Shown here in pieces: positions 13,528 through 30,852 of a DNA stretch of 51,793 bases. The translations under genes were made by a program, and so were the position numbers. The notes below the pieces were generated by a model that did no database searches, was not told the DNA's origin, and saw nothing but the letters and a program-made list of their open reading frames with translations. Origin of the DNA: an uncultured Erysipelotrichaceae bacterium (GTDB lineage: Bacteria > Bacillota_I > Bacilli_A > Erysipelotrichales > Erysipelotrichaceae); contig CALVGQ010000007.1 of the NCBI GenBank assembly GCA_944327135.1, positions 1-51,793 on the forward strand, given 5' to 3'. How positions within the stretch are numbered: the stretch's first letter is position 1; every line of letters starts with the position of its first letter.

Positions 13528-14712
13528 ATGGTTATTCATTCGACACGCATTTACACAGAAGAAGGCTGCAAATCGGGATATTTGTTTCTGGAAGGAAAAA
13601 AAATCGTCGATTTCAAAGAGCAGTGGGAAGGTCAGCAGGTCGTCGATTATGGTAATCAACGGATCATTCCAGGGATCTTTGATACGCACAATCATGGAAC
13701 GATGGGGTATGGACTGACTTCTGCACAAAGCAAAGATCCACGTAAAATTGTTCGTGGATATTTAAAGGGATTGGCTTCTCAGGGAGTGACGAATGTTTTC
13801 CCTACTTGTCATATTGATTTGATTAAGACGATTAGTGAAATGGCTGATGAAGAACAGGACGGAGCAACCATTGTGGGCATCCACAGTGAGGGTCCTTGGC
13901 TAAACCGGGTTGGAGAAAAAGGCATTAAAACGGGATGGCCGGAAGTCCGCTTGGAAACGGCGAAAAAAATGGTCCAGGATGGGGCTGGAAAATTACGGCT
14001 GGTTGCATTGGCCCCAGAAATTCCAGGAATTGATGAAATTATAGACTATTTTTTAAGTGAAGGCGTTACGCTGGCTTTTGCCCACAGTGATATGAACTAT
14101 GAAGAAGCTCGTAAGGCGCTTCCGGGACGAATTACGGTGGCGACTCATCTGGGCAATGTCATGAGCGGCCTGCATCATCGTGATATCGGCGGACTGGGGG
14201 CTTGTCTGCTTGATGATGAGATGATGTATGAAGTGATTTGTGATGGCATGCATATTTCGCTGCCGATGATTCAATTATATTTTAAGATGCGGGATTATTC
14301 GCGTTTCATGATGATATCGGATTGTTCTCAGATGGCTGGAGCTCCATGCGGTCAGTATCGCGGCTGGAACAAGAGCATGATCCTGAATGTAACTCCGGAG
14401 GGTTTTGTGCTGAGTGATACGGGCAGAATCTGCGGCAGCAGCAAGCCGGTTTTGTATGGTATCGGCAACCTTGTGGAGAAGCTGCATCTTCCGATGGAAA
14501 CAGTTATTCAGATGGCCTCGTTGAATCCGGCTAAAAAGTATGGTTTGGATAAAGAAAAAGGTTCCTTGGCTGTAGGCAAGGATGCCGATTTTGTAGTGAT
14601 CGATGAGAATTATCAGGCAGTGGCAACCTATGCCAATGGACGTAAGGTTTATGATGCGGCAATCGATCGGGATCTGTTTAATCCGGATTTTTTGCGGGAA
14701 ACAAAAATTTAA
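13528..14712 (+). CDS. nagA: N-acetylhexosamine-6-phosphate deacetylase (NagA/AgaA-like)
   Basis: A 394-residue amidohydrolase-superfamily enzyme that removes acetate from N-acetylglucosamine 6-phosphate (or the galactosamine analogue). The barrel shows the metal motif HNH (54-56), the conserved Glu121 in HSEGPWLN, His residues in FAHSDM and ATHLGN, and the catalytic Asp in MISDCSQMAG. The N- and C-terminal strands form the usual small beta-sandwich, ending with GKDADFVVIDENY. GGAGG is 9 nt from the start. The neighbouring PRD regulator and complete mannose-family PTS suggest that the PTS imports an N-acetylated amino sugar, perhaps N-acetylgalactosamine as in aga operons. No deaminase or isomerase gene is in the window, so the sugar cannot be fixed from context. 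Confidence 0.88.
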   Translation: MVIHSTRIYTEEGCKSGYLFLEGKKIVDFKEQWEGQQVVDYGNQRIIPGIFDTHNHGTMGYGLTSAQSKDPRKIVRGYLKGLASQGVTNVFPTCHIDLIKTISEMADEEQDGATIVGIHSEGPWLNRVGEKGIKTGWPEVRLETAKKMVQDGAGKLRLVALAPEIPGIDEIIDYFLSEGVTLAFAHSDMNYEEARKALPGRITVATHLGNVMSGLHHRDIGGLGACLLDDEMMYEVICDGMHISLPMIQLYFKMRDYSRFMMISDCSQMAGAPCGQYRGWNKSMILNVTPEGFVLSDTGRICGSSKPVLYGIGNLVEKLHLPMETVIQMASLNPAKKYGLDKEKGSLAVGKDADFVVIDENYQAVATYANGRKVYDAAIDRDLFNPDFLRETKI

Positions 14713-14721
14713 AAAAAGATC

Positions 14722-14745
14722 AGGCATGCAGCGCATGCCTTTTTA
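14722..14745 (+). terminator. rho-independent terminator after nagA
   Basis: An 8-bp stem AGGCATGC/GCATGCCT with an AGC loop is followed by TTTT. Confidence 0.85.
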
Positions 14746-14811
14746 AGCAGATCAGAGAAAACCAATTTTTCATTTCCAAACAGAAAGATTGGCAATAGTG
14801 AGGGGGCCATC

Positions 14812-16788
14812 ATGGAACTTGAAAAAAGCAGACATATTCAGATCGTCTTGTATTTTGTGCGTTTGGCTAGAATCATCACGTCAGAGGAGCTGGCTTCGTT
14901 AACTAAGGCAAGCACCCGCACGATCAAAAGTGATATCGCGCAGATCAATGATGTTTTAAAGGAAAAAGGAGCAGAGATCATTTCTCGTCGCAGTGAAGGC
15001 TATCAGCTGCAGATCATAGCAGAAGAAACGTTTGGACAATATCGAAAACAGCTGGAAGTGATAGGAGCGTATACCAATACCGAACAGGAGTTTTCTTATT
15101 TTCTTCGGGTTTCTGCGATTCTTAGAGAACTGCTTTCTTCGAATGATTATATTAATATTGATGAATTGGCGGAACGGATGTTTTTGTCACGCAGTACCGT
15201 GAAACAGGATTTGATAAAGGTGCGAGAATTTCTGGCTAGTTATTTTTTGCAGCTAGAGTCCAAGCCTGGATATGGGTTGCGAATTGTGGGGGAGGAACGG
15301 CATTTTCGCATGGCGATGATTGCCGCTTATGGAATCAATGTGGCAACCCTGGAACGCTCGATCCATCAGCAGCAATATCGATCACAGATGGAAAGCGAGG
15401 ATTATCCAGAGATCCGTCAGCTATTGCTGAGGGTCCTTCGTGAAAGTCATTATTCCATTAAAGATAATGCCTCTCAGGGACTTTCCCGATATCTGCTTGC
15501 GATGCGCAGCCGAATTCGTCTGGGCTATGGGCATATTCATTTTTCAAAACAGGAAAGAATGGAACTGCAGCAGTTTGAGATCCAAGGAAAGGTTACGGAA
15601 AAACTATTTAGTGGTTTGAAGGCTTTTGAAGGATTTGATGTTTCTGATGATGAAAAGGCCTTTGTGACTATGTATTTGGTGGCTTATCACGATTATGAGG
15701 GAGCGGAAATCACTGAAAATACAATGAAGTTCATGTTTCATGATATTAAAAAAATATATTATGAAGCTAGTGAATTTATTAAGACAACGCTGGGTTTGGC
15801 AGATAATTTTACGCGGACGCGGGAGCAGCTGTTCTACAATATCTCTCGTATTGTCATACGGAATCATTTTAAGATGTTGCCTTATAATACGCTGAGTATC
15901 AGCCGGATGTATGAAACCGTTCAGAAAAATTTGGTAGCGGTCAATCTGGCTTCCTATTTAGCGTCTTATCTGGAGGAAAGACTTTTCTGTCAATTGAGCA
16001 CGAAGGATATCTTATACTTAGCGCGTTATTTTGATGAACTTCTGGATCAGATCGAGTTTGATTATCAGCCGCAACGACTCATGACGGTTTCTGGAATTGG
16101 GAAAAATTATTCACAGATTCTGATTGACCGGATCCAGCGTCAGTTTAAAAAACGAATCCTTAGCAATACCGCTATGGAATTATATCAGATCCGTCCTTTG
16201 ACCAAACAGGATGTGGATCTGATCGTACTGGATAATCTGGCTTTTGCCTATCGGTATGATCTTCCGCATGTAGCGGTTGAAAACAAGGATTGCAGCGGAC
16301 TTCAGGAAGCGCTGAAAATGGGCTTTCTTATTGATCAGGAGTGCGAAGAAATTGCAGCCATGACGAAGATTTATCACAGTTATGAGTTTCAAAGCCGAGA
16401 AGATTGTTTTCGGATCATGAGCTATAAGTACGGAGTAGATGAATTGTCGGTCAGTGAAATGATTCGGCTGTTTAAGCGGCATGAAAAGCGGGTTAGCTAT
16501 GGCCGATATGGGTTTGCCGTTTTGTTGGCAGATTACCGGTTTGTACAGCGGAACTGCTTTGAAATTTACGAGCTGAAAAGCCCTTTGATCTGGTCAGAAG
16601 ATTTTTCTGTAGATTATGTCATGTTTCTTTCAGCGGATTTTTTTGCTAATTTGAAGCTGATGAAATCCTTCAGCTGTTTGATCATGGCTCTGGCTGAAGA
16701 GGAGAACTGGATTGAACGTTTACTGAAAGAAGACCGTCAAGAGGTGATCCGATCAGCGATTTTATCGCAGGTTCAGCTGAATGATTAA
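14812..16788 (+). CDS. PRD-containing PTS-dependent transcriptional regulator (MtlR/LicR type)
   Basis: A 658-residue multi-domain regulator. Two N-terminal helix-turn-helix domains are visible: one at about 18-50 (TSEELASLTKASTRTIKSDI) and one at about 115-145 (IDELAERMFLSRSTVKQDL). PRD-like helical domains follow (about 190-400), then regions resembling PTS EIIB (about 415-500) and EIIA (about 515-655). The regulatory domains are diverged and I cannot assign the phosphorylatable histidines. The double DNA-binding domain marks it as a DNA-binding activator rather than an RNA antiterminator. It lies directly upstream of the first PTS operon, separated from it by a terminator and a palindrome that is a good candidate for its binding site. 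A second regulator of the same build is at 27649-29571. Confidence 0.88.
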   Translation: MELEKSRHIQIVLYFVRLARIITSEELASLTKASTRTIKSDIAQINDVLKEKGAEIISRRSEGYQLQIIAEETFGQYRKQLEVIGAYTNTEQEFSYFLRVSAILRELLSSNDYINIDELAERMFLSRSTVKQDLIKVREFLASYFLQLESKPGYGLRIVGEERHFRMAMIAAYGINVATLERSIHQQQYRSQMESEDYPEIRQLLLRVLRESHYSIKDNASQGLSRYLLAMRSRIRLGYGHIHFSKQERMELQQFEIQGKVTEKLFSGLKAFEGFDVSDDEKAFVTMYLVAYHDYEGAEITENTMKFMFHDIKKIYYEASEFIKTTLGLADNFTRTREQLFYNISRIVIRNHFKMLPYNTLSISRMYETVQKNLVAVNLASYLASYLEERLFCQLSTKDILYLARYFDELLDQIEFDYQPQRLMTVSGIGKNYSQILIDRIQRQFKKRILSNTAMELYQIRPLTKQDVDLIVLDNLAFAYRYDLPHVAVENKDCSGLQEALKMGFLIDQECEEIAAMTKIYHSYEFQSREDCFRIMSYKYGVDELSVSEMIRLFKRHEKRVSYGRYGFAVLLADYRFVQRNCFEIYELKSPLIWSEDFSVDYVMFLSADFFANLKLMKSFSCLIMALAEEENWIERLLKEDRQEVIRSAILSQVQLND

Positions 16789-16792
16789 AAGC

Positions 16793-16822
16793 AATCAAAC
16801 GACTTGAATGGGTCGTTTGATT
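16793..16822 (+). terminator. terminator after the first PRD regulator
   Basis: A perfect 11-bp stem AATCAAACGAC/GTCGTTTGATT with an 8-nt loop. The T tail is only three bases and runs into the operator palindrome. Confidence 0.7.
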
Positions 16823-16841
16823 TCACTTTATTAAGTGAAAT
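16820..16841. promoter_or_regulatory. operator palindrome 1 (ATTTCACTT-N4-AAGTGAAAT)
   Basis: A perfect 9-bp inverted repeat with centre TATT. A close relative stands before the second PTS operon at 24128-24146. Here its centre is about 71 bp upstream of the candidate -10 box (16901-16906), a distance that suits an activator. The best candidate protein is a PRD regulator, one of which is encoded immediately upstream. Confidence 0.65.
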
Positions 16842-16900
16842 TTAGCGGCATCTTCCTTTTGAGCGGAAATCATTCAACTTCAAGTTTATGGAAAACCCAA

Positions 16901-16931
16901 TACAATAGAGAATGTAATGTAAGCGTTTTAA
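16901..16931 (+). promoter_or_regulatory. PTS operon 1 -10 box and downstream cre site
   Basis: TACAAT (16901-16906) is a good -10 box without a convincing -35 box 17 bp upstream, which fits activator-dependent transcription. TGTAAGCGTTTTAA (16918-16931) matches the CcpA cre consensus TGWAANCGNTNWCA at 13 of 14 positions and would lie just downstream of the start site, where CcpA represses as a roadblock. Confidence 0.55.
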
Positions 16932-16942
16932 AAGGAGGGCTT

Positions 16943-17356
16943 ATGCGGAAATTCTTTATTTCTTCTCACGGTCATCTGGCCAGTGGCATCAAAAGCTCGC
17001 TCGAGATTCTTTTAGGCAAAGCGGAAAATGTAACTGTCTTTGACGCGTATCTCGATCAGCGCAGTGTTGAGTCTGAGGTGGAAGCTTTTTTCAAAACCGT
17101 CGGGCCGAATGATCAGGCAATTCTGCTTTCGGATCTGCTTGGCGGAAGTGTCAATCAGGTACTGTATCGGTATCTTGATCGGCCGAATACAATGCTGGCG
17201 GCTGGAGTCAATCTGGCTTTGGTGTTGGAATTGGTTGCAATGAGTGAAGCACCGCTGAGTGAAGAGGAGCTGGATCAGCTGATCGAAGCGTCTCGTCAGG
17301 CGATGACACGAGTTGTGCTGGACACGGAAGAAGTTGTTCAGGAAGATTTCTTTTAA
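16943..17356 (+). CDS. PTS EIIA, mannose/fructose/sorbose family
   Basis: A 137-residue cytoplasmic phosphocarrier. The N-terminal strand and loop SSHGHLASG place the phospho-acceptor at His9, and LLSDLLGGS near residue 60 is typical of the EIIA-Man fold. The start at 16943 has AAAGGAGGG 3-9 nt upstream; a reading that begins at 16835 would include the promoter and is rejected. It accepts phosphate from HPr and passes it to the EIIB encoded next. It is the only mannose-type EIIA in the window, so it may also serve the second PTS, which has none. Confidence 0.93.
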   Translation: MRKFFISSHGHLASGIKSSLEILLGKAENVTVFDAYLDQRSVESEVEAFFKTVGPNDQAILLSDLLGGSVNQVLYRYLDRPNTMLAAGVNLALVLELVAMSEAPLSEEELDQLIEASRQAMTRVVLDTEEVVQEDFF

Positions 17357-17377
17357 AATTGGAAAGGTGGAACTAAA

Positions 17378-17866
17378 ATGATTAAATTACTGCGTTTGGA
17401 TGAACGTCTGATTCATGGCCAAATTGCGATCAAATGGTCGCGTCACACCAATGTTGATCACATTGTGGTCGCAAACGATGCGGCTGCGGGAAGCCAGATC
17501 ATTCAGAAAAGTTTGATGATGGCAGCACCTGGTCATATCAAAACAGCGATCAAATCGATGGATGCAGCAATCAAGCTGCTGAATGATCCACGGTGTGAAT
17601 CCATGAGTATTCTGGTGCTGGTAAAGAACCCTTGGGATCTGGCTAGAATGGTGGAATCTGTTCCGGGAATTGAAAAAGTCAACATCGGAAACTATGGCCG
17701 TGTTGAGCCGGAGCATGAAGGTCACCCAAGAAAACGGTACGGCAATAATCTGTACATCGACGATACCGAATTACCGGAATTCAAAAAAGTTGTTGCGAAA
17801 TATAAAGCGATTTATCAGACAACACCGGAAGAACCGGCAGAAGATCTGGCAAAATTGATCGGATAA
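17378..17866 (+). CDS. PTS EIIB, mannose/fructose/sorbose family
   Basis: A 162-residue cytoplasmic EIIB. The opening strand ends in RLDERLIHGQI, which sets the phospho-His at position 13. The rest has the EIIB-Man pattern, including VNIGNYGRVE in the middle and a Lys-rich C-terminal helix. It transfers phosphate from EIIA to the sugar during transport through IIC-IID. It follows EIIA by 21 bp. A cre-like sequence (17872-17885 on the reverse strand, 12 of 14 positions) lies in the gap before the EIIC gene. Confidence 0.94.
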   Translation: MIKLLRLDERLIHGQIAIKWSRHTNVDHIVVANDAAAGSQIIQKSLMMAAPGHIKTAIKSMDAAIKLLNDPRCESMSILVLVKNPWDLARMVESVPGIEKVNIGNYGRVEPEHEGHPRKRYGNNLYIDDTELPEFKKVVAKYKAIYQTTPEEPAEDLAKLIG

Positions 17867-17914
17867 ATTCTCGCTGAACGCTTACATGAGAAATTAAGAA
17901 AGGGATAGATATTT

Positions 17915-18715
17915 ATGGTACAAAGTGCACTTATCGTCGCATTTGTCTACTGGCTGATCATGGCAGTCGATTATCTGATTGCTTGGCAGACCCTGACAAG
18001 ACCAATCGTTGTTGCTCCGGTAACAGGTTTATTCCTGGGTGATTTACACACAGGTATTATTATGGGTGCTTCCCTGGAAGCGATCTTCATGGGAATTTCA
18101 GCAATCGGTGGATCCGTTCCAGCGGATGCTACTTCCAGCTCGATCTTGGCGGTTGCCTTTACAATCCTGTCGGGAGCTGACGTAGAAACCGGTTTGGCGA
18201 TTGCTATGCCAATTGGTACGTTGATGGCTTCATTCAAGAGCATGACGACTCCAATTTATGCGGCGTTGTCTCCTTATTGGGAAGAATTGGCGGCTTCTGG
18301 AAACATGAAGAGCTTCCGGATCCAGACCATTGCTTTCCAGCTGACGCTGGCGAACATTACAGGCGTTTTGATTCTGTTCTTTAGCGTTGCTTACGGAACG
18401 ACTGCATTGGAAAGCCTGCTGGCTTCTATGCCTGGCTTTGTGACTCGCGGTCTGGCTGCTGCTAGCTCAATGATGACCGGTGTCGGATACGCCATCCTGC
18501 TGAGCATGCTGTGGACCAAAGAAGTTGGCGGATTCTTCTTCGTTGGTTATGTTCTGGCAAAATATCTGGGAATGGATTCTTTGTCAATCGCTATCCTGGG
18601 TGCGGTTATTGCGATTACCTCATTCATGAATGAAAAACGGTATATCGATCTTAAAAATTCACTCAGCAGCAAAGGTGCTGCTGCAGCAGCAAACGATGAG
18701 GAGGACTTCTTCTAA
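17915..18715 (+). CDS. PTS EIIC, mannose/fructose/sorbose family
   Basis: A 266-residue membrane subunit with the EIIC-Man pattern: an early hydrophobic segment, then RPIVVAPVTGLFLGDLHTGI and a run of small-residue-rich segments (MGASLEAIFMGISAIGG, VPADATSSSILAVAF) that line the sugar path, followed by further hydrophobic helices. It forms the translocation channel with IID, whose gene overlaps its stop by one base (TAATG). The C-terminal tail is acidic and Ala-rich. Confidence 0.94.
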   Translation: MVQSALIVAFVYWLIMAVDYLIAWQTLTRPIVVAPVTGLFLGDLHTGIIMGASLEAIFMGISAIGGSVPADATSSSILAVAFTILSGADVETGLAIAMPIGTLMASFKSMTTPIYAALSPYWEELAASGNMKSFRIQTIAFQLTLANITGVLILFFSVAYGTTALESLLASMPGFVTRGLAAASSMMTGVGYAILLSMLWTKEVGGFFFVGYVLAKYLGMDSLSIAILGAVIAITSFMNEKRYIDLKNSLSSKGAAAAANDEEDFF

Positions 18716-19533
18716 TGGCTAAGAATACATTAACTCCTACTGAAAACAGTATTTTAAGAAAAATGTTTATGAACTCCGGCATGGTGTTTGTAACCTTCAC
18801 CATGACAAAGATGGAAGCTAACGGATTTACGATGATGATGCAGCCGGCTCTGGATGTTCTGTATAAGGATGATCCGGAAGGAAGAAAGGTTGCGCTTCGC
18901 CGTCATAATCAGTTCTTCAATACGCATGCGGTTCTGTTTAGCTTTATTGCGGGTCTGACTTTCGCTTTGGAAAAACAGAAAGTGGAAAACGGCTCTATCG
19001 ATGATGAAACGATCCAGAACATCAAGGTTGCCTTGATGGGACCGACCGCAGGTATGGGAGATGCCTTCTTCTTCAACTGCGTTCGTGTTATTGCTGCAGG
19101 TGTTGGTATTGGACTTTGCGAACAGGGAAATATTCTGGGTACGCTGCTGTTTATCGCGCTGTATGGCGGATCTCAGCTGGTTGCTCGTTGGTATTTGCTG
19201 AAGATTGGCTACTCGATGGGTACAAGCTTCATCGATACGATGTTTGAATCTGGATTGATGGATGCTTTGACAAAGGCAGCTTCTATTCTGGGTATGGTCA
19301 TGGTTGGTGCGATGGTTGCGTCTCAGGTAAACGTCAACTTGGCTTGGAACATCAGCGTTGGAGATACCACTGTTATCGTAAATGACATTGTCAACTCCAT
19401 CATGCCAGGTATTCTTTCGATTGCCTTGGTCTTTGGATTGATGAAACTGATCAAGAAGGGTCAGAAGCCTTCTACTTTGGTTATTGGTATCCTGATCGGA
19501 TCGATCGTTCTGGCATTCTTTGGAATTTTCTAA
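18715..19533 (+). CDS. PTS EIID, mannose/fructose/sorbose family
   Basis: A 272-residue membrane partner of EIIC. The N-terminal cytoplasmic part contains MVFVTFTMTKMEANGF and RRHNQFFNTH, the usual EIID start, and LMGPTAGMGDAFFF is the family signature. Hydrophobic segments follow at the C-terminus. It is the last gene of the IIA-IIB-IIC-IID operon and is followed by a terminator. Confidence 0.94.
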   Translation: MAKNTLTPTENSILRKMFMNSGMVFVTFTMTKMEANGFTMMMQPALDVLYKDDPEGRKVALRRHNQFFNTHAVLFSFIAGLTFALEKQKVENGSIDDETIQNIKVALMGPTAGMGDAFFFNCVRVIAAGVGIGLCEQGNILGTLLFIALYGGSQLVARWYLLKIGYSMGTSFIDTMFESGLMDALTKAASILGMVMVGAMVASQVNVNLAWNISVGDTTVIVNDIVNSIMPGILSIALVFGLMKLIKKGQKPSTLVIGILIGSIVLAFFGIF

Positions 19534-20579: not shown

Positions 20580-21947
20580 TTAGCGCAAAAAGAGTCGGAT
20601 CAACCTTTCCTTGAGCAAGGAATATGGCTGATAGCGAAAAGGCAGATCAAGCCAAGTGGCTTTATGAACAATGGACTTGAAATGGCTGAAGGTTTCAAAG
20701 CCGGCTTTCCCATGATAACAGCCCATTCCGGAATTTCCGACTCCGCCAAAGGGCATGGCGGAGGTAGCCAGATGAATGATCGTATCATTGATGCAGCCGC
20801 CGCCGAATTTCATTTGCTGCTGAACCTTTTGAATGGCTTGGGTATTTTTAGAGAAAAAATAAAAGGCCAAGGGAGCAGGTTTTTGAGCGATGATCTGAAG
20901 ACAGTCTTCCAGCTTATCAAACGTCAGAATGGGTAAAACCGGACCAAAGATCTCTTCTTGCATGATGGCATCCTGCCATGTGATTGAATCCATCAAAGTA
21001 GGAAAAATCTGTTGCGTAGAATGTAGAATTTCGCCTCCAAAAATGACTTTTGCAGGATCGATCAAAGCCTGCAGCCGCTGAAAATGCTTTTCGTTAATGA
21101 TCTTTCCATAGGCTTTTTTGCTGGCAAACTGCTGCTGAATTTCCTGGATCAGCGCTTTGATCAGCGCTTCTTTGACGGTTTGCTGCACATAGAGATAATC
21201 TGGTGCAACACAGGTTTGACCCAAATTCAAAAATTTACCAAAGACGATCCGGCGGGCTGCGATTTTAAGATCTGCAGTTTCATCCACGATGCAAGGTGAT
21301 TTTCCGCCTAGCTCCAAGGTGACAGGGGTAAGATGAACGCTGGCTTTTCGCATGACTTCATGGCCTACGGCACAGGACCCAGTAAAGAAAATATAATCAA
21401 AGGATTCATCGAGCAAGGCCTGATTTTCCTTGCGTCCACCTTCGATGACTGCCACGATTTCTTCCGGGAAAACCTCTTTTAGGATGGAAGCAAGAAGGGC
21501 GCTGGTGGCCATGGAATAAGCGCTAGGTTTGACACAAACGCAGTTTCCAGCGGCGATGGCATCAATCAGAGGCTCCATGGTCAGCATGAAAGGATAATTC
21601 CAGGGACTCATGATTAGCACAACCCCATAAGGGGAAGGCAGCCGATAACTGAGTGAGGGAAACTGGGCCAAAGGAGTGGGAACGATTCGTTTTCGAGCAT
21701 ACCGGCGGGTATGGCGCAGCATATGATCGAGTTCGCTTAAGACCATTCCGGTTTCTGACATATAGCTTTCCGTAGACGATTTGCCAAGATCCTGATACAA
21801 GGCAGCATGGATCTTGGATTCATTTTGACGAATTACTGATCGCAACTTTTTAAGATAGGTTAATCGAGCGGTGACGCTTAGCGTGGCTCCGCTGGCAAAG
21901 GCTGTGCGCTGTTTGTTGACAATTGCATGGATTTCATGGCTTTCCAT
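20580..21947 (-). CDS. aldehyde dehydrogenase (class 3, NAD(P)-dependent)
   Basis: A 455-residue enzyme that oxidises aldehydes to acids. It is of the short class 3/fatty aldehyde type. The conserved Glu is in TLELGGKSPCIV and the nucleophilic Cys in LGQTCVAPDY; the cofactor-binding stretch is SPWNYPF and FTGSCAVG. The C-terminus PFRYQPYSLLKERLIRLFLR is amphipathic, as in membrane-associated fatty aldehyde dehydrogenases. The start has AAGGAGG at 7 nt, within the 3' end of the upstream alcohol dehydrogenase frame, which it overlaps by 70 bp. With that enzyme it could convert an alcohol to its acid or detoxify aldehydes. Confidence 0.93.
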   Translation of the reverse strand: MESHEIHAIVNKQRTAFASGATLSVTARLTYLKKLRSVIRQNESKIHAALYQDLGKSSTESYMSETGMVLSELDHMLRHTRRYARKRIVPTPLAQFPSLSYRLPSPYGVVLIMSPWNYPFMLTMEPLIDAIAAGNCVCVKPSAYSMATSALLASILKEVFPEEIVAVIEGGRKENQALLDESFDYIFFTGSCAVGHEVMRKASVHLTPVTLELGGKSPCIVDETADLKIAARRIVFGKFLNLGQTCVAPDYLYVQQTVKEALIKALIQEIQQQFASKKAYGKIINEKHFQRLQALIDPAKVIFGGEILHSTQQIFPTLMDSITWQDAIMQEEIFGPVLPILTFDKLEDCLQIIAQKPAPLAFYFFSKNTQAIQKVQQQMKFGGGCINDTIIHLATSAMPFGGVGNSGMGCYHGKAGFETFSHFKSIVHKATWLDLPFRYQPYSLLKERLIRLFLR

Positions 21948-23155
21948 TGTGTTTCCTCCTTCATCACGGCCCGATAAAAGACTTCAAGCTGACGGGCATT
22001 ATATAAAACTGGAACAGGATAGAGCGGATTGGCTTCTTTGGCAGCATGGGCACACAGATAAGGCAGATCCTGAGGCTGGATTTCTGGAATGCTTGATGGT
22101 ATTGCGAAACATCGATTCATCGCTTCGATGGATTCGATAAAATGCAGCGCTGCGGCTTGCGGATCAGTATTGGAATCAGCCAGACCGGCGGCGATAGCAC
22201 AATCCTTTAATTTCTGATGGATTGCAGAGCCATAGCCACGAAGGACCACAGGAAGCAGCACCGCATTGGCCAAACCATGAGCGCTCCCGTATACTCCGCC
22301 CAAGGCATGCGCCAGGGCATGGACATAGCCGACATAGGACTTGGTGAAAGCCAAACCAGCCAGATAGGCGGCCTGAGCCATGCTTTCACGTGCTTTTTGA
22401 TCCTGACCGTTGGCATGGGCCCGTGGAAGAAAAGCGAAGATCAGATGAATGGCTTTTAAGGCAGCCTCTCGCGTGTCCTGCGTCGTAGAGCGTCCTATAT
22501 AGGCTTCGACCGCATGGGTCAAAGCGTCCAATCCGGTCGTGGCGGTAAGAAATGGCGGCATGCTGAAGGTCATGCGGGCATCCAGCAAAGCATATTTCGG
22601 AATCAGTGGAAAATCATTGATGGCATACTTGGTTTGTGCTTTTGGATCGGTGATGACGGCGGCCAGGGTACATTCACTGCCGGTTCCTGCCGTCGTTGGA
22701 ATGGCAATTAAAACAGGAAGCCTGCGCCAGACCTTCAAAACTCCGCGCATTCGATGAAGAGAAGTGTGAGGGCGGACAACACGGGCCCCTACACCTTTGG
22801 CACAGTCGATAGAAGATCCGCCACCAAGGGCAATCAGCCCCTTACAATGGTGTTGCTGATAAAGGGCGAGCGCTTCTTCGACATTACTCACTGTGGGATT
22901 GACCTGAGTTTTATCATAACAGATCACGGTGATCCCGTTTTGGCTTAGGGTGTGGACGACCGGCTGATGAAGTCCTAATTTTACGATGCCAGGATCACTG
23001 ACTAACAGGACGCATTGGCAATTCTCTTGATCAAGAACATGCGGAAGATCTTCTATGCGTGCAATTTGCTGAGGCTTTCGGTAAGGAAGAAATGGGATAG
23101 CGAGGCGAAAACAGCTTTGAAAAGCTCGACAATAGAGCTGATTGATCCAATTCAT
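21878..23155 (-). CDS. iron-containing alcohol dehydrogenase
   Basis: A 425-residue member of the group III alcohol dehydrogenases. The NAD-binding motif GGGSSIDCAKG, the AIPTTAGTGSE stretch and metal-binding histidines in DALTHAVEAY and HALAHALGGVYGSAHG are all present. The gene is the first of a reverse-strand operon, read from a near-consensus promoter. The last 27 or so residues after YRAVMKEE extend beyond the usual family end and overlap the aldehyde dehydrogenase gene by 70 bp, which suggests that an earlier stop was lost. GGAG is 6 nt upstream of the ATG. Confidence 0.93.
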   Translation of the reverse strand: MNWINQLYCRAFQSCFRLAIPFLPYRKPQQIARIEDLPHVLDQENCQCVLLVSDPGIVKLGLHQPVVHTLSQNGITVICYDKTQVNPTVSNVEEALALYQQHHCKGLIALGGGSSIDCAKGVGARVVRPHTSLHRMRGVLKVWRRLPVLIAIPTTAGTGSECTLAAVITDPKAQTKYAINDFPLIPKYALLDARMTFSMPPFLTATTGLDALTHAVEAYIGRSTTQDTREAALKAIHLIFAFLPRAHANGQDQKARESMAQAAYLAGLAFTKSYVGYVHALAHALGGVYGSAHGLANAVLLPVVLRGYGSAIHQKLKDCAIAAGLADSNTDPQAAALHFIESIEAMNRCFAIPSSIPEIQPQDLPYLCAHAAKEANPLYPVPVLYNARQLEVFYRAVMKEETQWKAMKSMQLSTNSAQPLPAEPR

Positions 23156-24127: not shown

Positions 24128-24146
24128 TTTCACTTGTCAAGTGAAA
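24128..24146. promoter_or_regulatory. operator palindrome 2 (TTTCACTTG-T-CAAGTGAAA)
   Basis: A perfect 9-bp inverted repeat around a single base. Its half-site TTTCACTT/AAGTGAAA is the same as in the palindrome before PTS operon 1, with a 3-bp instead of 4-bp core spacing. Its centre is 71 bp upstream of the candidate -10 box, equal to the distance in operon 1. Confidence 0.65.
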
Positions 24147-24184
24147 GAATTAATAATTACTTTACGCTAATGAAAATTCAAAAA

Positions 24185-24213
24185 TTGAATACGCTTACAA
24201 AATCAACAATAAT
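24185..24213 (+). promoter_or_regulatory. PTS operon 2 promoter with overlapping cre site
   Basis: TTGAAT (24185-24190) and AATAAT (24208-24213) are 17 bp apart. Read on the reverse strand, 24186-24199 is TGTAAGCGTATTCA, matching the cre consensus at 13 of 14 positions. It overlaps the -35 box, so CcpA would block polymerase directly. Confidence 0.55.
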
Positions 24214-24244
24214 GAAACCAGGATGTCAGGAAAGGAGGGAAACC

Positions 24245-24745
24245 ATGAAAATACTGAACATACGAGTGGATGATCGACTAGTGCACGGTGTTGTTGCAAC
24301 AAATTGGATTCCGCGTTTGAATGTGGACCGGGTAATTGTGATTGACAAGGAAAGCGCTAATAATCAAATGCTGAAAAGTGTCTTGAGAATGGCCACTCCT
24401 AAAAATGTTAATCTGTCAGTGATTACTTTGGAAAAGACGCTGGATAATTTCAAGATCAACAAATATGGCAATGAAAAAATCATGATCGTAGTAAAAACAC
24501 TGGAGCCGATTCTTGAGCTGCTGGAAGGTGGATTTCAGTTTGAAAAGCTGACGATCGGGAATATGGGTAATCAGGTCAAGACAGAAAGTACAGTGCCATT
24601 AACCAAATACGTATCGATCAATGATGAAACGCTTCCTCAGGTCAAAGCGATTGCCGCTAAAGGGGTGGCCGTAAAAGCACAGCTGATTCCTGAGGACGAA
24701 GAAGAAGACGTCATGGAAATTTTAAACAAAAAAAATATTGGATAG
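24245..24745 (+). CDS. PTS EIIB, mannose/fructose/sorbose family (second system)
   Basis: A 166-residue EIIB. RVDDRLVHGVV gives the phospho-His at position 14, and LTIGNMGNQ matches the family middle motif. The start at 24245 has AAAGGAGGG 6 nt upstream; a longer reading from 24134 would start inside the operator and is rejected. It heads an operon that continues with IIC, IID and a ceramidase-like gene, but has no EIIA, so it must receive phosphate from an EIIA encoded elsewhere, possibly the one at 16943. Confidence 0.93.
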   Translation: MKILNIRVDDRLVHGVVATNWIPRLNVDRVIVIDKESANNQMLKSVLRMATPKNVNLSVITLEKTLDNFKINKYGNEKIMIVVKTLEPILELLEGGFQFEKLTIGNMGNQVKTESTVPLTKYVSINDETLPQVKAIAAKGVAVKAQLIPEDEEEDVMEILNKKNIG

Positions 24746-24757
24746 GGAGGAATTCAA

Positions 24758-25546
24758 ATGATTTCAGTATTTCAGATTATTCTGATTCTGATCGCAATCA
24801 CTTTAGTTTCCTATGAAGTGTTGATGACACAAATGATGGTCAAATGCTGCGGTGAATCCGTTTTGCTTGGCTTGCTTGTAGGCTTGATCATGGGGGATGC
24901 GACAACGGGCTTATTGATTGGCGGCACAATGCAGTTGATGAGCTTGGGATTAGCAGGTTATGGCGGTGCTTCTGTACCGAATTATCGGGTAGGAACGACC
25001 GTGGGAACCGCTTTTGCAATTGCCACGGGCGGCGGATTAGAGGTCGCTTTGGTTGTAGGAATTCCAGCAGCTACGTTGGGAGTTCAATTAGATGTTTTGG
25101 CGAAAATGCTGGGAACCTATTTTCTGCATCTGGCAGAGAAGGCGGCAGAAAAAGGACAGTACAAAAAAAGCTATGGAATTATTTTCTGGGGAAATCTTTT
25201 TGCAAGCCGTGTCGCTTTAACCAATACATATCCTGCTTTGATTTTCTTGCTTCTGGGCTCTGCTTTTGTAGAAAACCTTCTGGCAATTATTCCGGCTTGG
25301 TTTATTTCTGGTTTAACGACTTGCGGAAATGTGCTTCCGGCTTTAGGTATGGCTATTTTGCTGAAATACATGCCGTTAAAGGGAAACCTTCAGTACTTGG
25401 TTTTAGGTTTTATCCTTTCCGTTTATTTTGGCTTGGATATTCTTCCGATTGCGATTGTCGGCGGAATCATTGCGGTGCTTCTTTATCAGAGATTGCAGCG
25501 TGAAAGCAAGCAGCAGGTTGTTACAGGAGGAATCGGCGATGAGTAA
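24758..25546 (+). CDS. PTS EIIC, mannose/fructose/sorbose family (second system)
   Basis: A 262-residue membrane channel subunit. Typical stretches are LGLLVGLIMGDATTGLLIGG, MQLMSLGLAGYGGASVPNYR and a series of Gly/Ala-rich hydrophobic helices; SVPNYR replaces the VPAD-type segment in the first system, so substrate contacts probably differ. It starts 12 bp after the EIIB gene and overlaps EIID by 8 bp. Confidence 0.93.
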   Translation: MISVFQIILILIAITLVSYEVLMTQMMVKCCGESVLLGLLVGLIMGDATTGLLIGGTMQLMSLGLAGYGGASVPNYRVGTTVGTAFAIATGGGLEVALVVGIPAATLGVQLDVLAKMLGTYFLHLAEKAAEKGQYKKSYGIIFWGNLFASRVALTNTYPALIFLLLGSAFVENLLAIIPAWFISGLTTCGNVLPALGMAILLKYMPLKGNLQYLVLGFILSVYFGLDILPIAIVGGIIAVLLYQRLQRESKQQVVTGGIGDE

Positions 25547-26342
25547 TGAAAGATTAACAAAAAAAGAATTATGGAACTTTTCAACACGGTATGCACTAAC
25601 AGCACAGGCCTGTCAGAACTATGAAACGATGCAGTCTTGTGCGGTTATTTACAGCATGGGACCTTATCTTGAGAAAATCTATGCAGATGATCCAGAACTT
25701 TTGAAAGAAAAATTCAAAGCTCATTTCCAGTTCTTTAATTGCCAGACATATTTTGGTGCAGCGATCATTGCGGCTGCTTTGGCGATTGAAGAAACCAAAT
25801 CCAGTGATGCGACAGCGGTGGCTTCTGCGATTAAAACTTCCCTGATGGGACCATTCTCAGGAATTGGAGATGCCTTGTTTAACACCATGCCAAAAGTGAT
25901 TTTGGCAGCATTATCTGCGTATGCTGCACTGGAAGGCAGCTTTATGACAGGAGCGATCCTGTTGGTTATCTTTACTCCACTGCTGGTCTTTTTGCGCTGG
26001 AAGATTATAGAATTAGGCTATTATAAAGGAGCAGAAATCATTACTGAGCATCAGGAACAGCTCAACAATGTCCGTGAAGCGATCTCGGTTCTTGGAATTA
26101 TTGTTGTGGGAGCACTGATTGCGACGACGGTCAAAGTCAGCACGCCGCTGACAATCACGGCTGGAGAATCGACACAGAGTATTCAGGATTTGATTGACAG
26201 TATTTTCCCTAAACTTCTTCCTGCTGTAGCAACTTTCTTGGTCTATAAAGGGCTGGATATGAAAAAGATGAATACCGTCAGAATGGTTTGGGTCATTATT
26301 GTGGTTGTGATGACTCTTTCGGTATTGAAGGTGATTGCTTAA
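25539..26342 (+). CDS. PTS EIID, mannose/fructose/sorbose family (second system)
   Basis: A 267-residue EIID subunit. FSTRYALTAQACQNYETMQS replaces the usual N-terminal stretch, and LMGPFSGIGDALFN is the family signature near residue 100. The start at 25539 has GGAGG 8 nt upstream and overlaps EIIC by 8 bp; an earlier in-frame start at 25428 would lie deep in the EIIC gene and is rejected. Its stop is immediately followed by the ATG of the ceramidase-like gene, so the two are tightly coupled. Confidence 0.92.
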   Translation: MSNERLTKKELWNFSTRYALTAQACQNYETMQSCAVIYSMGPYLEKIYADDPELLKEKFKAHFQFFNCQTYFGAAIIAAALAIEETKSSDATAVASAIKTSLMGPFSGIGDALFNTMPKVILAALSAYAALEGSFMTGAILLVIFTPLLVFLRWKIIELGYYKGAEIITEHQEQLNNVREAISVLGIIVVGALIATTVKVSTPLTITAGESTQSIQDLIDSIFPKLLPAVATFLVYKGLDMKKMNTVRMVWVIIVVVMTLSVLKVIA

Positions 26343-27566
26343 ATGTCTATAGGAATTGTTTGTAAAACAGTCGATATTACTCCTGAAATTCCGGTCTTTT
26401 TACGTGGACATGCAATGCGTAAAGAAAAATCAAAAGGGGTTCATGACCGCCTTGAGGCAGTAGTGAGCTGGCTGAAAATCGGTGAGATCAGAAATTTGTT
26501 TGTGAATGGAGATGTCTCTGGCTGGGATTATGAATTTGTTCATGCTTTTAAAAGAAAGGTAATGGAACAGTGTAATGTGAAAGCTGAGCATATCGTGCTC
26601 AGCGCCACCCATACTCATTCCGGTCCGACCTTATTTACAGTGGATCAGGATCAGCCGCATGATGAAGCGTATCGCCAGGAAGTGTTAAAGAAATTGGTTG
26701 AAACAGCGGTGTCCATTTATGATCAGGAGGTTCCGGTTTCTCAGGTTGTTTGCTCTTCTGGAAATTCAGAAGGATATTATGGAAATCGCAACGGCAAAGA
26801 TAAGTACGGCGATCAGAAAATCACTCTTCTGGAATTTAAGAACGAGAAAAATGAAAATCTTGCTGCTTTTGTTCATCTATCCTGTCATTCTACGGTTTTA
26901 AGCCCGCAGGAATATCAGATCAGCGGAGATCTGCTGGGAGCATTAAGAAGAAAATTAACACCGCTGCTTCATGTGACTCCGATGATGATGAATGGCAATG
27001 CCGGAGATATGAGCAATCGCTTGTATCGGAAAAACAATGATTTTAAGGAATTGGATCGAATCAGTCAGGGAATTGCCTATCAGATTATGGGATTTTCTGA
27101 AAAAATGACGCTTGATTTAAGTGATGAACAAGAGAATAGCTTTACATTTGAGGTTGCTTATGATACAGATAAAGAAACCTTGAAGAAAAAAATTGAAGAG
27201 TTTAATGTCAAGCTTGAAAGTACCACTGAATTTGACGCAAGAAAATGGCTGATCTCAGAAATCGCGGGATTTAAGCGCAAGCTGGCGGTAGACCATGTGG
27301 ATCTGAAGTTTGAAACAACGATCCTTCGAATGAAAGATTTGGAATTGGTCATTCTCCCATGTGAGCTAGTTTCGGCATTTGGAAAACAAATTAAAAAAAC
27401 CTCGACGGCAAAGTGCTGCATAGTTTGGGGTTATGCGAATGGGCAGACAACTTATGTCGTCGAAGCTTCCGAATTTAATGGCGGGCATGATGGGATTGCG
27501 ACTCATCTGCCAAAGGGAAAAGCGGAAGAATATGTAGCGTTGATTTTACAGCATTTATTTGACTGA
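26343..27566 (+). CDS. leaderless neutral/alkaline ceramidase-like hydrolase A
   Basis: A 407-residue protein that I relate to the N-terminal catalytic domain of neutral/alkaline ceramidases. By comparison with the Pseudomonas enzyme, the zinc site would be His90/His92 in ATHTHSGP, His182 in CHST, Glu341 in PCELVSAFG and Tyr371 in QTTYVVEASEF, and the nucleophile Ser224 in GNAGDMSNR. All are present. There is no signal peptide and it lacks the C-terminal domain of secreted ceramidases, which are usually near 650 residues. It begins right after the EIID stop, so it should act in the cytoplasm on the PTS product. I infer cleavage of an N-acyl amide or similar bond in an amino sugar phosphate. 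The fold call is fairly secure; the substrate is a hypothesis. Confidence 0.8.
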   Translation: MSIGIVCKTVDITPEIPVFLRGHAMRKEKSKGVHDRLEAVVSWLKIGEIRNLFVNGDVSGWDYEFVHAFKRKVMEQCNVKAEHIVLSATHTHSGPTLFTVDQDQPHDEAYRQEVLKKLVETAVSIYDQEVPVSQVVCSSGNSEGYYGNRNGKDKYGDQKITLLEFKNEKNENLAAFVHLSCHSTVLSPQEYQISGDLLGALRRKLTPLLHVTPMMMNGNAGDMSNRLYRKNNDFKELDRISQGIAYQIMGFSEKMTLDLSDEQENSFTFEVAYDTDKETLKKKIEEFNVKLESTTEFDARKWLISEIAGFKRKLAVDHVDLKFETTILRMKDLELVILPCELVSAFGKQIKKTSTAKCCIVWGYANGQTTYVVEASEFNGGHDGIATHLPKGKAEEYVALILQHLFD

Positions 27567-27648
27567 ATTTGGAAAAGGGCTGCAGCAAAATAGAGAGTAT
27601 TCTATTCGTGACAGCTCTTTTCATCATTATGCGTAGGGAGGATTGAAG

Positions 27649-29571
27649 ATGCGGTTAAATCAAAGACAAATGAAATTATTGAAACTTCTTTTCTCCCAGC
27701 AGCGTTATTGGACGACCGAAGAGCTGGCAGGAAAGCTCAATGTGACTTCTCGAACGATCAAAAGCGATCTGAATTTGATTCGTGATGAAATCAGGCAATA
27801 TCAAATAGAAATTCAGGCAATTCGTGGCAAAGGAGTGTCTTTGATCGTCCATGATCAGGAAGACTACTATCGGTTATGCGGGGATATTTCCAATCTTACT
27901 TACAATCTTGGCGGTTTCCGTAGTGAATTTCAGCAAAGAGCATTCATTCTTTATCGGATGATTGTGAATAAAATCGGCTATCTTTCAGTGAATGAGCTGG
28001 CTGAGAAACTCAATCTGAGCCGCAGTGTGATCAATCAGGAGATTCCTGAAGTGAAAAAGCGTTTGGCAATGTTTCATTTAACTTTAAAAAACATTCCATA
28101 TCATGGACTCTTGTTAGAGGGAACGGAAATTGCGATCCGAGCCAGCATTATCGACAGTTTTGATAATAAAAATGAAGATATTTCTTCAGATTATTATCTG
28201 GAAGAATATCGGGAATTGAATTTCTTTGATGCAGTCGCGATCAGAAATAAGATTACTGAGCTTTTTCAGCAGGAACAGCTGGAAGCAACTTCTATCATGA
28301 TTGACCGGATTACAGTAGCTTATATGATTTCCAAGATTCGTTCTGCCCGCGGAAGAAAAGTAGAGGAAGAACGGTTGGCTGTCCTGAAGCATTCTCAGAT
28401 GATTCGAGTGATCGAAAAATTGCTGAAGCGCATGAATGATGAGCTGTCTTCAGCAGACATATCATTTTTGGCGGTATATTGTTTGTCCTGTGTCAATCCG
28501 CCTAAAGAACGTTTTCGTGATTATTATGGTGAATTTTACGAGGTCAGCTTGGAAATCTATCATGTTTTAAAAGAAGAGGTTTTTCCACAATGGAAGTTGA
28601 ATCCGCAGCAGCCGTTTTTTGAAGAAGAATGTTTAAGAATCTTGTTGCAGAACTGTGTTATTTCAGAATATTCGCTGTATCGAATGTATTATACCAACGA
28701 TATTCGTGAATATTGCCGGACGTCTTTCTTTTTGGAAATCGCTTGCCGTACATGTATGATCCTGGAAAAGCGTTTCAATTTTCTGGTATCTAGAGGGCTT
28801 TTATATTTATTTACTTTGTTTTTTGAATATGGATATAATGGATTAAAGGAGCCAGAAGGCAGCTTTACGCCAATTAAAATTGTTCCGAATTTTGATCGTA
28901 TTTCCGCCATGCTGTATAAAGATTATTTAACTGCACAGAAGGATTTTCCTTATTCGAAGATTTTGATTGCAGATCATTATGATGATCATGATAAAGATTC
29001 ACTTTATTTGATTCTGGATAATCCTTCCTTGTCTGGAAGGAATATTGTGAATTGCAGTTATCTTTTTGAACGGGAAAAGATGAATCGGTTGATTCGCCAG
29101 AAATATGCAGAGTTAAACAAGGAAGCGTTCATGAATACGACCGATTTTAAAAAAATTTATCTTTTTACACTCAATGAAGCGGCAACAAAAAAAGAACTAT
29201 TTTGGCTGATTAGCGGGATTTTTAATAGAGATCCGCAAAAACAACTGCAGACGATGAATTTTATTAATCAGCGTGAAAACATGGTGAGCTATGAAAATCA
29301 AAAGAATAATTTAGCAGTGATTCCTTTATTTGAACAAGATGAAACAGGATTATGTATTTTAAAATTAACCAAGCCAATTACTTTTAAGAACTGGTCGGTT
29401 GATTTTATCATGGTTTTTTCAATTCGCAAGAAAGTTCGGCTGATTCATTTTGTATCTCAGTTTGTTCGGTATGCGATGCTAGATCCGGAAGGGTTGAAAA
29501 AAATGGTTTCAGATTTTGATCGAGAAGAAGATTTGTTGGAAGAATTTATAAAGAAATCAGCGTTGATGTAA
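27649..29571 (+). CDS. PRD-containing PTS-dependent transcriptional regulator (second)
   Basis: A 640-residue regulator of the MtlR/LicR build. Two helix-turn-helix domains are at about 20-45 (TTEELAGKLNVTSRTIKSDL) and 110-135 (VNELAEKLNLSRSVINQEI). Helical PRD-like regions follow (about 180-400), then diverged EIIB- and EIIA-like regions. The start at 27649 has AGGGAGG 7 nt upstream; a TTG two codons earlier is less likely. It lies between the two ceramidase-like genes and is probably part of their operon or read from a weak promoter in the 82-bp gap. It is the natural candidate to bind the palindrome at 24128-24146. Confidence 0.87.
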   Translation: MRLNQRQMKLLKLLFSQQRYWTTEELAGKLNVTSRTIKSDLNLIRDEIRQYQIEIQAIRGKGVSLIVHDQEDYYRLCGDISNLTYNLGGFRSEFQQRAFILYRMIVNKIGYLSVNELAEKLNLSRSVINQEIPEVKKRLAMFHLTLKNIPYHGLLLEGTEIAIRASIIDSFDNKNEDISSDYYLEEYRELNFFDAVAIRNKITELFQQEQLEATSIMIDRITVAYMISKIRSARGRKVEEERLAVLKHSQMIRVIEKLLKRMNDELSSADISFLAVYCLSCVNPPKERFRDYYGEFYEVSLEIYHVLKEEVFPQWKLNPQQPFFEEECLRILLQNCVISEYSLYRMYYTNDIREYCRTSFFLEIACRTCMILEKRFNFLVSRGLLYLFTLFFEYGYNGLKEPEGSFTPIKIVPNFDRISAMLYKDYLTAQKDFPYSKILIADHYDDHDKDSLYLILDNPSLSGRNIVNCSYLFEREKMNRLIRQKYAELNKEAFMNTTDFKKIYLFTLNEAATKKELFWLISGIFNRDPQKQLQTMNFINQRENMVSYENQKNNLAVIPLFEQDETGLCILKLTKPITFKNWSVDFIMVFSIRKKVRLIHFVSQFVRYAMLDPEGLKKMVSDFDREEDLLEEFIKKSALM

Positions 29572-29622
29572 AAGAAATAATTTAATAAGGGAAGAATGCC
29601 TAAGAAGAAGGAGGGATTCGTA

Positions 29623-30852
29623 ATGCTTAGCGTTTCATTGAAACAAACGATAGTTAATCCTGACCATCCTGTATGGCAGGCTGGCGGGGCAACCCGGACA
29701 CAGAAAGCACGAGGGGTATACAGTGATGTCAAGGTCATGGCGCTAACGCTGAAAATCAACCAAAAATGGATGATCCTGACGACAGTAGATGCGACGGCTT
29801 TGGAAACAAAAGACGTGGAAGACTTACAGGAGCAAATCAGTGCGGCAACAGGGATTGATCAAGAAGCGATTTTGATTGTTGCGACTCATACCCATTCCGC
29901 TCCAGCGCTGAAGGAAAGCTCGTCAACTTCAAAACAAGTGGATGAGGGTTATAAACGATCTGTGTTTGCAGCATTGGTGGATACGGCCGTATCTAGCGCG
30001 CAAAGCTGCCAAGAGGCGACAGCCTATGCTCAGACAGGGGAACTGATTGGGTATTATGGCAATCGCGATCAAAAAGAAAAGGAAGGAGATCAGAGCGCTT
30101 GTCTTTTGACCTTTAGGGACCAAGCTGGCAAGGTGATTGCTGCTTTGGTCCAGCTGCATTGTCATCCAACCTTTCTGGATCAATCCTGGCTGATGATCAG
30201 TGCAGATTTAGCCGGAGCTTTGAGGGAAGCCTTAGGGCGTTCTTTGGGAGTGGAACCGATGTTTGTCTGCGGGGTGACTGGCGATATGAGCTCCCGCTAT
30301 TGGAGAAAAAGCCAGGACTATTTTACTCTGGAAAAAAGCGCTCAGGAGATGGCTGATCGGATCCTGAAGTTTAGACCAGAAAAACCTCTTGAATTGAATA
30401 CGCTTCGGATCGAACAGGTAGAGAAACATATCCATCATCCGGTGAATCTTATAGATTTGAAGAACAAGCTGGATAGGTATCTTCAGCAGCAAAAAACAGA
30501 GACCGATCCCATCGAACAGCGACTGCTGGCGACCAAGATTCGCAATGCAAGAGCCTCTTTGGATTCTGGTGAAACAGAAATCGATCTGATGTGGAAAACT
30601 TCGATTATCACTCTGGGCGATTTGCAGCTGGTGACATTCAACAATGATCCGGTTGTTTACTTTGGAAAGCAGATCAAAGCGGCTTCATCCAAAAAGCTTT
30701 GTCTTACCTTGAATCATGTCAACGGAGAGGTAGGATATTTGGTCGAAAAGTCAGATTATCAAACCGGCTATATTGGAAACGTAACCAAAGCCTTGCCGGG
30801 AGAAGCAGAAGAATATATTGCTGCAATTGTTGAACGAGTGAAACAAATTTAG
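29623..30852 (+). CDS. leaderless neutral/alkaline ceramidase-like hydrolase B
   Basis: A 409-residue paralogue of the protein at 26343. It keeps His89/His91 in ATHTHSAP, His181 in CHPT, Ser223 in VTGDMSSR and Tyr372 in EVGYLVEKSDY, but the position of the conserved zinc ligand Glu is Asp342 in FNNDPVVYFG. Asp may still bind zinc, or activity may differ. There is no signal peptide. The start at 29623 follows GGAGG at 9 nt; an upstream in-frame ATG at 29596 lacks a site. It is the last gene of the second PTS cluster and is followed by a terminator. Two divergent paralogues in one operon suggest a heteromer or two acyl or sugar specificities. Confidence 0.8.
   Translation: MLSVSLKQTIVNPDHPVWQAGGATRTQKARGVYSDVKVMALTLKINQKWMILTTVDATALETKDVEDLQEQISAATGIDQEAILIVATHTHSAPALKESSSTSKQVDEGYKRSVFAALVDTAVSSAQSCQEATAYAQTGELIGYYGNRDQKEKEGDQSACLLTFRDQAGKVIAALVQLHCHPTFLDQSWLMISADLAGALREALGRSLGVEPMFVCGVTGDMSSRYWRKSQDYFTLEKSAQEMADRILKFRPEKPLELNTLRIEQVEKHIHHPVNLIDLKNKLDRYLQQQKTETDPIEQRLLATKIRNARASLDSGETEIDLMWKTSIITLGDLQLVTFNNDPVVYFGKQIKAASSKKLCLTLNHVNGEVGYLVEKSDYQTGYIGNVTKALPGEAEEYIAAIVERVKQI

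Follow-up and report, generated by a model that had tools for sequence, protein, structure and literature searches.

A ceramidase-fold hydrolase paired with mannose-family PTS transporters in Erysipelotrichaceae

An operon at positions 24245–30852 of contig CALVGQ010000007.1 from an uncultured Erysipelotrichaceae bacterium (assembly GCA_944327135.1; genome of 2.05 Mb on 117 contigs) encodes two ceramidase-like proteins together with a sugar transporter of the phosphotransferase system (PTS). The whole stretch of DNA analyzed here, positions 1–51,793 of this contig, is referred to as the window. The locus raises the question of what proteins with the fold of a lipid hydrolase do in an operon for sugar uptake. 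A preliminary description of the sequence had proposed that the fold was adapted to act on a PTS-imported phosphosugar. We found that the pairing is conserved: ceramidase-fold proteins with the zinc-site residues are encoded next to mannose-family transporters, amid amino-sugar genes. We favor, with about even confidence, a role for the enzyme as a zinc-dependent amidase in the cytosol. Its substrate would be an amino-sugar phosphate that is N-acylated or N-conjugated and enters through the PTS, and the enzyme would work alongside NagA, not in its place.

Results and Discussion

Organization of the operon

The operon comprises the following genes:

24245–24745, + strand: PTS EIIB of the mannose/sorbose family, 166 amino acids (aa) (PF03830, E 1.9e-41; start chosen by ribosome-binding site)
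24758–25546, + strand: PTS EIIC, 262 aa (PF03609, E 5.3e-59)
25539–26342, + strand: PTS EIID, 267 aa (PF03613, E 4.5e-76; inside a clade in which 29 of 29 sampled EIIDs are ceramidase-linked)
26343–27566, + strand: ceramidase-fold hydrolase copy 1, 407 aa (PF04734, E 1.6e-11; all zinc-site residues present)
27649–29571, + strand: transcriptional regulator with HTH_11 and Mga domains (PRD-like class), 640 aa (HTH_11, E 2.5e-15; Mga, E 4.6e-10)
29623–30852, + strand: ceramidase-fold hydrolase copy 2, 409 aa (PF04734, E 3.8e-9; zinc-ligand Glu changed to Asp)

For EIIB the ATG at 24245, which has a AAAGGAGG site upstream, was taken as the start, and the longer open reading frame (ORF) from 24134 is unlikely. 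The presence of EIIB, EIIC, and EIID (PF03830, PF03609, and PF03613) places the transporter in the mannose family. The best NCBIfam match of EIIC was AgaW, with a score far under the AgaW cut-off. The genes for EIIC and EIID overlap by 8 bp, the ATG of copy 1 directly follows the TAA of the EIID gene with 0 bp between, and the gaps from copy 1 to the regulator gene and from there to copy 2 are 82 bp and 51 bp. Gene order, protein lengths, and Pfam matches agree with the preliminary description, which had listed IIB, IIC, and IID, followed without a gap by a 407-residue ceramidase-like protein, a regulator, and a 409-residue paralog. No EIIA gene was found within 24245–30852; ten EIIA-man genes lie elsewhere in the genome, one of them at window positions 16955–17275.

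Fold and zinc site of the two hydrolases

Both proteins scored above the Pfam cut-off for PF04734 (44.0 bits for copy 1 and 36.2 bits for copy 2, cut-off 32.1), and they share 32% identity with each other. When sequences of solved structures were searched, neutral ceramidase was a weak match only (E 0.01 and 0.25). The predicted models had a mean predicted local distance difference test score (pLDDT) of 95.5 for copy 1 and 95.3 for copy 2. The model of copy 1 matched neutral ceramidase from Pseudomonas (2ZWS) with a Z score of 39.7 over 365 residues at 2.4 Å, with model residues 1–407 covered, and the model of copy 2 matched it with a Z score of 38.7 over 384 residues at 3.3 Å. Z scores against the human enzyme (4WGK, ASAH2) were 37.1 and 35.7, respectively, and the next unrelated folds reached Z scores of at most 7.4 with both models. 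The comparison with the Pseudomonas enzyme, in which the zinc-site residues were also aligned, bore out the suggested fold. Both models aligned to residues 3–486 of 2ZWS only; therefore, the C-terminal domain is missing from both copies, as anticipated for proteins of 407 and 409 aa.

We take the zinc ligands of 2ZWS to be His97, His204, Glu411, and Tyr448. By alignment, His97, His99, His204, Ser274, Glu411, and Tyr448 of 2ZWS correspond to H90, H92, H182, S224, E341, and Y371 of copy 1, which also has R149 in the aligned set. All four zinc-ligand equivalents are present in copy 1, while copy 2 has Asp at the place of Glu411, as judged from the alignment and not from coordinates. The assumption that both proteins keep the catalytic motifs was correct for copy 1. 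Copy 2 retains THTHSAP, CHPT, GDMS, and the zinc-ligand Tyr, but besides the change from Glu to Asp it has HVN instead of GYAN. With the neutral ceramidase equivalog model NF041649, copy 2 scored 18 bits versus a cut-off of 1200 and copy 1 gave no match. Neither copy matched the NCBIfam model for NagA (TIGR00221).

Linkage to PTS genes

We searched 146 genomes of the family with a profile built from four copies. Homologs were present in 67 of these genomes, and the window's own genome has seven homologs. ORFs were called in 120 neighborhoods, and PTS subunits were labeled by profiles from the window's own genes. The linkage statistics comprised 131 homologs from 62 family genomes, and the expectation was derived from the size and the EIID count of each genome. 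An EIID gene was located within 6 kb of 52 of the 131 homologs (expected at most 10.8). A PTS gene on the same strand was present within 150 bp of 35 homologs, in 23 of the 62 genomes (expected about 1.2). These numbers led us to reject a chance neighborhood, and the survey confirmed the conserved linkage that had been assumed from the single locus.

In the homolog tree, a group of 40 rows (support 87), in the following called the PTS-linked clade, held 32 of the 45 rows with same-strand PTS linkage; the group of 49 rows that encloses it (support 96) held 34. The EIID tree contained one group with a support of 97, in which all 29 members were enzyme-linked and which included none of 40 control EIIDs of the same family. 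The view that this transporter subfamily is exclusive to the enzyme was weakened by a search with a model of the linked EIIDs: unlinked relatives appeared from rank 26, and 29 of the top 38 were linked, the top ranks being circular because linked sequences had gone into the model. The linkage of this EIID type with the enzyme is thus strong, not exclusive. In the smallest operons (L139 and L167), the hydrolase is the sole enzyme encoded with the PTS and regulator genes. Across the phylum, 10 of the 295 genomes searched had close members, and 8 of these 10 belong to the same family.

Tandem ceramidase-fold pairs also occur upstream of PTS genes at L134 (5998–8781) and L136 (5998–8687). In these pairs the zinc-site residues are present in both members, unlike in the window pair.

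Cellular location

In a crude hydrophobicity test, neither window copy had a signal-like N-terminus. Signal-peptide-like N-termini were seen in none of the 40 members of the PTS-linked clade, in 3 of 88 other family members, and in 17 of 68 relatives from elsewhere. This supports that both window proteins are cytosolic. The preliminary description had set the two leaderless proteins apart from the secreted ceramidases of about 650 residues. The lack of a leader was seen here as well, but the contrast was overstated, since short leaderless PF04734 relatives of about 400–440 aa are widespread and the feature is usual among them.

The shared fold and zinc-site residues would also be expected of a true ceramidase or N-acyl-lipid hydrolase whose PTS neighborhood is functionally meaningless. 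We consider this extremely improbable, given a linkage far beyond chance in many genomes, an EIID tree in which transporters co-cluster with enzyme linkage, a clade devoid of signal peptides, and equivalog scores (18 bits versus 1200 for copy 2, no match for copy 1) that speak against it.

Changes around the active site

H90, H92, R149, H182, E341, and Y371 are each conserved in at least 97% of 196 homologs. The set H90, H92, R149, H182, E/D341, and Y371 is jointly intact in 190 of the 196 and in 44 of the 45 PTS-linked copies. A PTS-linked copy at L151 (6001–7239) has Cys, Tyr, and Ala in place of H90, H182, and E341; judging from this loss of zinc ligands, it is possibly inactive.

Position 224 is occupied by Ser in 149, by Asn in 24, and by Gly in 20 of the 196 homologs. 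With Asn or Gly in 44 proteins, a serine nucleophile as the family mechanism is doubtful. In human neutral ceramidase, catalysis is assigned to His196, Arg257, Tyr579, and Tyr591, while Ser354 is described as only positioning Arg257 (review, PMC6952831). The change from Ser to Gly, which is found in 8 of the 45 PTS-linked copies, would therefore be compatible with catalysis. A further ceramidase-fold copy of the window genome (L013, 9618–10859) likewise has Gly instead of the Ser of the conserved motif.

Two other positions differ between the PTS-linked clade and most of the family. Position 146 is part of GYYGNR and precedes the conserved Arg by three residues; position 382 would, by its spacing from Tyr579, be the equivalent of human Tyr591. 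Y146 is combined with F, H, Q, P, or A at position 382 in 34 of the 40 members of the PTS-linked clade, whereas most other family members have G146 and Y382. Furthermore, R26, R229, and K351 are nearly fixed in this clade, and position 229 is R or K in all 45 PTS-linked copies versus 2 of 13 copies linked to FGGY kinases. A phosphorylated substrate would fit with basic residues whose fixation goes along with PTS linkage.

Most members of the PTS-linked clade have another residue at the place that matches Tyr591 by spacing. The chemistry may therefore have changed, and the zinc site might hydrolyze an ester or lactone, for example in an O-acyl sugar phosphate, instead of an amide. Zinc-activated water is also able to cut esters, and HAD phosphatases, PfkB, and metallo-beta-lactamase-fold proteins, which occur as partners, are compatible with a non-amino sugar. 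The characterized members of the fold are amidases, however, and the genes that recur in its neighborhood across phyla are those for amino sugars, so that we regard ester or lactone hydrolysis as unlikely.

Gene context and relation to NagA

The partners encoded in PTS-linked operons included HAD phosphatases, NIF3, YdjC/ChbG-like proteins, a metallo-beta-lactamase-fold (MBL) protein, 1-phosphofructokinase-like PfkB together with DeoR, NanE, NagA, and an SIS_2 "sugar isomerase domain" protein. The gene order in the L013 operon is PfkB-IIB-IIC-IID-IIA-enzyme-MBL fold-DeoR. GntR-enzyme-SIS_2 is a second recurrent arrangement, which lacks PTS genes, and the order at L184 is GntR-PTS-enzyme-SIS_2. 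An SIS_2 gene was located within three genes of 29 of 123 homologs. Outside the family, the enzyme and SIS_2 genes are adjoined by AgaS and tagatose-bisphosphate aldolase genes at L246, a locus without NagA; at L245, an EIIC of the cellobiose family and a homolog of chitin disaccharide deacetylase are encoded beside the enzyme. Among KSB1, Planctomycetes, Verrucomicrobia, and others, an FGGY kinase gene was near the hydrolase gene in 15 loci and directly adjacent in 14 of these; the same survey revealed NagA in 8 loci, NagB-like proteins in 8, Gfo/Idh oxidoreductases in 11, and class III aminotransferases in 9.

At L020, L044, L049, L053, and L060, which represent several phyla, genes for NagA, a NagB-like protein, a ceramidase-fold protein, and an FGGY kinase cluster, often with Gfo/Idh and class III aminotransferase genes. 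This cluster looks like an undescribed amino-sugar pathway. At L014 (5966–7738), next to a further ceramidase-fold copy, an ORF of 590 aa appeared by eye to be a fusion of a DNA-3-methyladenine glycosylase and an M20 peptidase.

NagA was present in all 67 family genomes with the enzyme and in 62 of the 79 genomes without it (P 1.3e-5, kinship ignored). The copy numbers of enzyme and NagA were correlated (rho 0.72; 0.65 allowing for EIID number and 0.69 allowing for PfkB), with NagA counted up to 12 per genome, so that 12 stands for at least 12. For the PfkB control, the correlation was 0.28. The two enzyme-bearing genomes examined outside the family also have NagA. NagA adjoins the enzyme at L036 and is encoded in the same stretch at L199 and L202. 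Since all 67 enzyme genomes carry NagA and the copy numbers rise together, the enzyme is no stand-in for NagA, and a replacement as its general role was rejected. It is very unlikely that the enzyme is a non-homologous substitute which itself deacetylates N-acetylglucosamine (GlcNAc)-6-phosphate or N-acetylgalactosamine-6-phosphate: this would explain L246, where SIS_2, AgaS, and the aldolase accompany the enzyme in the locus without NagA, and L184, where enzyme-SIS_2 occupies the place of NagA and NagB in classical operons, but it conflicts with the NagA genes in all 67 and both outside genomes and with those near the enzyme at L036, L199, and L202.

Because NagA co-occurs with the enzyme and adjoins it, the enzyme seems to act next to NagA. 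This would also be the case if it cleaved the amide in another sugar conjugate, such as GlcNAc-asparagine, a muramoyl-peptide, or a sugar-amino acid adduct, to provide GlcNAc-6-phosphate or a similar compound for NagA. Such a role is in line with the usually several NagA copies in the 67 enzyme genomes, with NagA and NagB-like genes adjoining the enzyme in several phyla, and with MurQ-like, M20 peptidase, and SIS genes that recur nearby. We nevertheless consider it unlikely, as neither asparaginase, etherase, nor peptidase is a constant partner and most operons of the largest PTS-linked clade lack them.

Regulator and neighboring genes

The 640-aa regulator had been described as a PRD regulator. 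HTH_11, Mga, and weaker HTH matches were indeed found, but PF00874 (PRD) was not detected in this protein, although the similar regulator at 14812 does match this domain. "PRD-like" is therefore the safer name. A possible inverted repeat (AAAAGGGCTG ... CAGCTCTTTT) at window positions 27570–27620, between copy 1 and the regulator gene, is a candidate attenuator.

A second mannose-family PTS operon at window positions 13528–19533 encodes a NagA paralog, a 658-aa regulator (Mga and PRD), EIIA, EIIB, EIIC, and EIID. The NagA paralog scored 200 bits with TIGR00221, which is under the cut-off of 225.65. No ceramidase-like protein is encoded in this operon, whose EIID lies outside the ceramidase-linked clade. 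On the − strand, window positions 20580–23155 harbor overlapping genes for an aldehyde dehydrogenase and an iron-containing alcohol dehydrogenase.

Proposed function

We propose that the operon would act as a specialized module that takes up and hydrolyzes a modified amino sugar. The sugar would be imported and phosphorylated by EIIB, EIIC, and EIID together with an EIIA from elsewhere in the genome. Copy 1, as a member of the neutral ceramidase superfamily and a zinc hydrolase of the cytosol, would then cut an amide bond on the sugar phosphate, with the zinc held by H90, H182, E341, and Y371 and with H92 and R149 assisting. The product, either an amino-sugar phosphate or a simpler N-acetyl derivative, would be left to NagA/NagB-type enzymes to finish. 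The HTH/Mga regulator probably turns the operon on upon a PTS substrate signal, and copy 2 is a diverged paralog, perhaps for a related substrate. We infer the substrate class, an N-acylated or conjugated amino-sugar phosphate, from gene context; the amide chemistry, the phosphorylated state of the substrate, the order of the steps, the regulation, and the role of copy 2 are likewise predictions.

Several points weigh against this amidase function. Many minimal PTS operons have no amino-sugar-specific gene, and the largest PTS-linked clade has varied partners (HAD phosphatases, NIF3, metallo-beta-lactamase fold, 1-phosphofructokinase-like PfkB, and YdjC). The 1-phosphofructokinase-like gene at L013, L126, L128, L129, and L158 equally suits a ketose or hexose product. 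The genome-level correlation of copy numbers ignores shared ancestry, and residues 26, 229, and 351 are only presumed neighbors of the zinc. Moreover, we know of no short PF04734 member with a known substrate.

From the initial proposal of a fold adapted to a PTS-imported phosphosugar, the fold, the zinc residues, the PTS linkage, and the recurring amino-sugar context were retained, while the special position relative to the secreted 650-aa ceramidases was not. As a tentative extension, to which we give slightly less than even confidence, the ceramidase fold may be the origin of a class of amidases that act inside the cell on phosphorylated amino sugars. Mannose-family transporters would supply these amidases with substrate in Erysipelotrichaceae, and FGGY kinases would do so in several other phyla; where NagA and the enzyme share a cluster, a sugar carrying two N-acyl groups, one for each enzyme, could be the substrate.

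We found no description of a PTS-linked or sugar-acting PF04734 protein in the open-access literature, most subscription papers lying outside that search, and for this reason the novelty is provisional. In gut genomes, the Pfam name likely leads to the annotation "ceramidase" and points to sphingolipids, whereas the evidence presented here points to sugar uptake. If the proposed amidase function is true, a new fold joins those known to hydrolyze amino-sugar phosphates, many uncharacterized PTS operons in a common gut family (homologs in 67 of 146 genomes) gain a predicted use, and changes in the active site of a lipid enzyme can be tied to a new substrate class.

Comparison with known systems

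The neutral/alkaline ceramidases (2ZWS and 4WGK) resemble the window proteins in the predicted fold over the whole of both copies and, by alignment, in the zinc ligands and the His/Arg pair. The window proteins differ from them by their length of about 400 aa, the missing C-terminal domain, the lack of a signal peptide, and an identity of only 13–19%. The altered 146/382 pair of the PTS-linked clade and the PTS operon context further set these relatives apart.

Short PF04734 proteins of KSB1, Planctomycetes, Verrucomicrobia, and relatives are alike in length class, zinc-site residues, and amino-sugar neighbors. They often have an adjoining FGGY kinase instead of a PTS and mostly G146/Y382, and some have a possible signal peptide.

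The Aga/Nag-type mannose-family PTS operons share the EIIB, EIIC, and EIID families with the operon described here, and NagA, NanE, AgaS, or SIS partners occur in some of its relatives. Unlike in those operons, the hydrolase next to the transporter has a ceramidase fold, and the subunit scores are far under the equivalog cut-offs. NagA (TIGR00221) likewise stands with PTS and amino-sugar genes, but it belongs to the Pfam family Amidohydro_1, in contrast to PF04734, and it co-occurs with the ceramidase-fold enzyme instead of being replaced by it.

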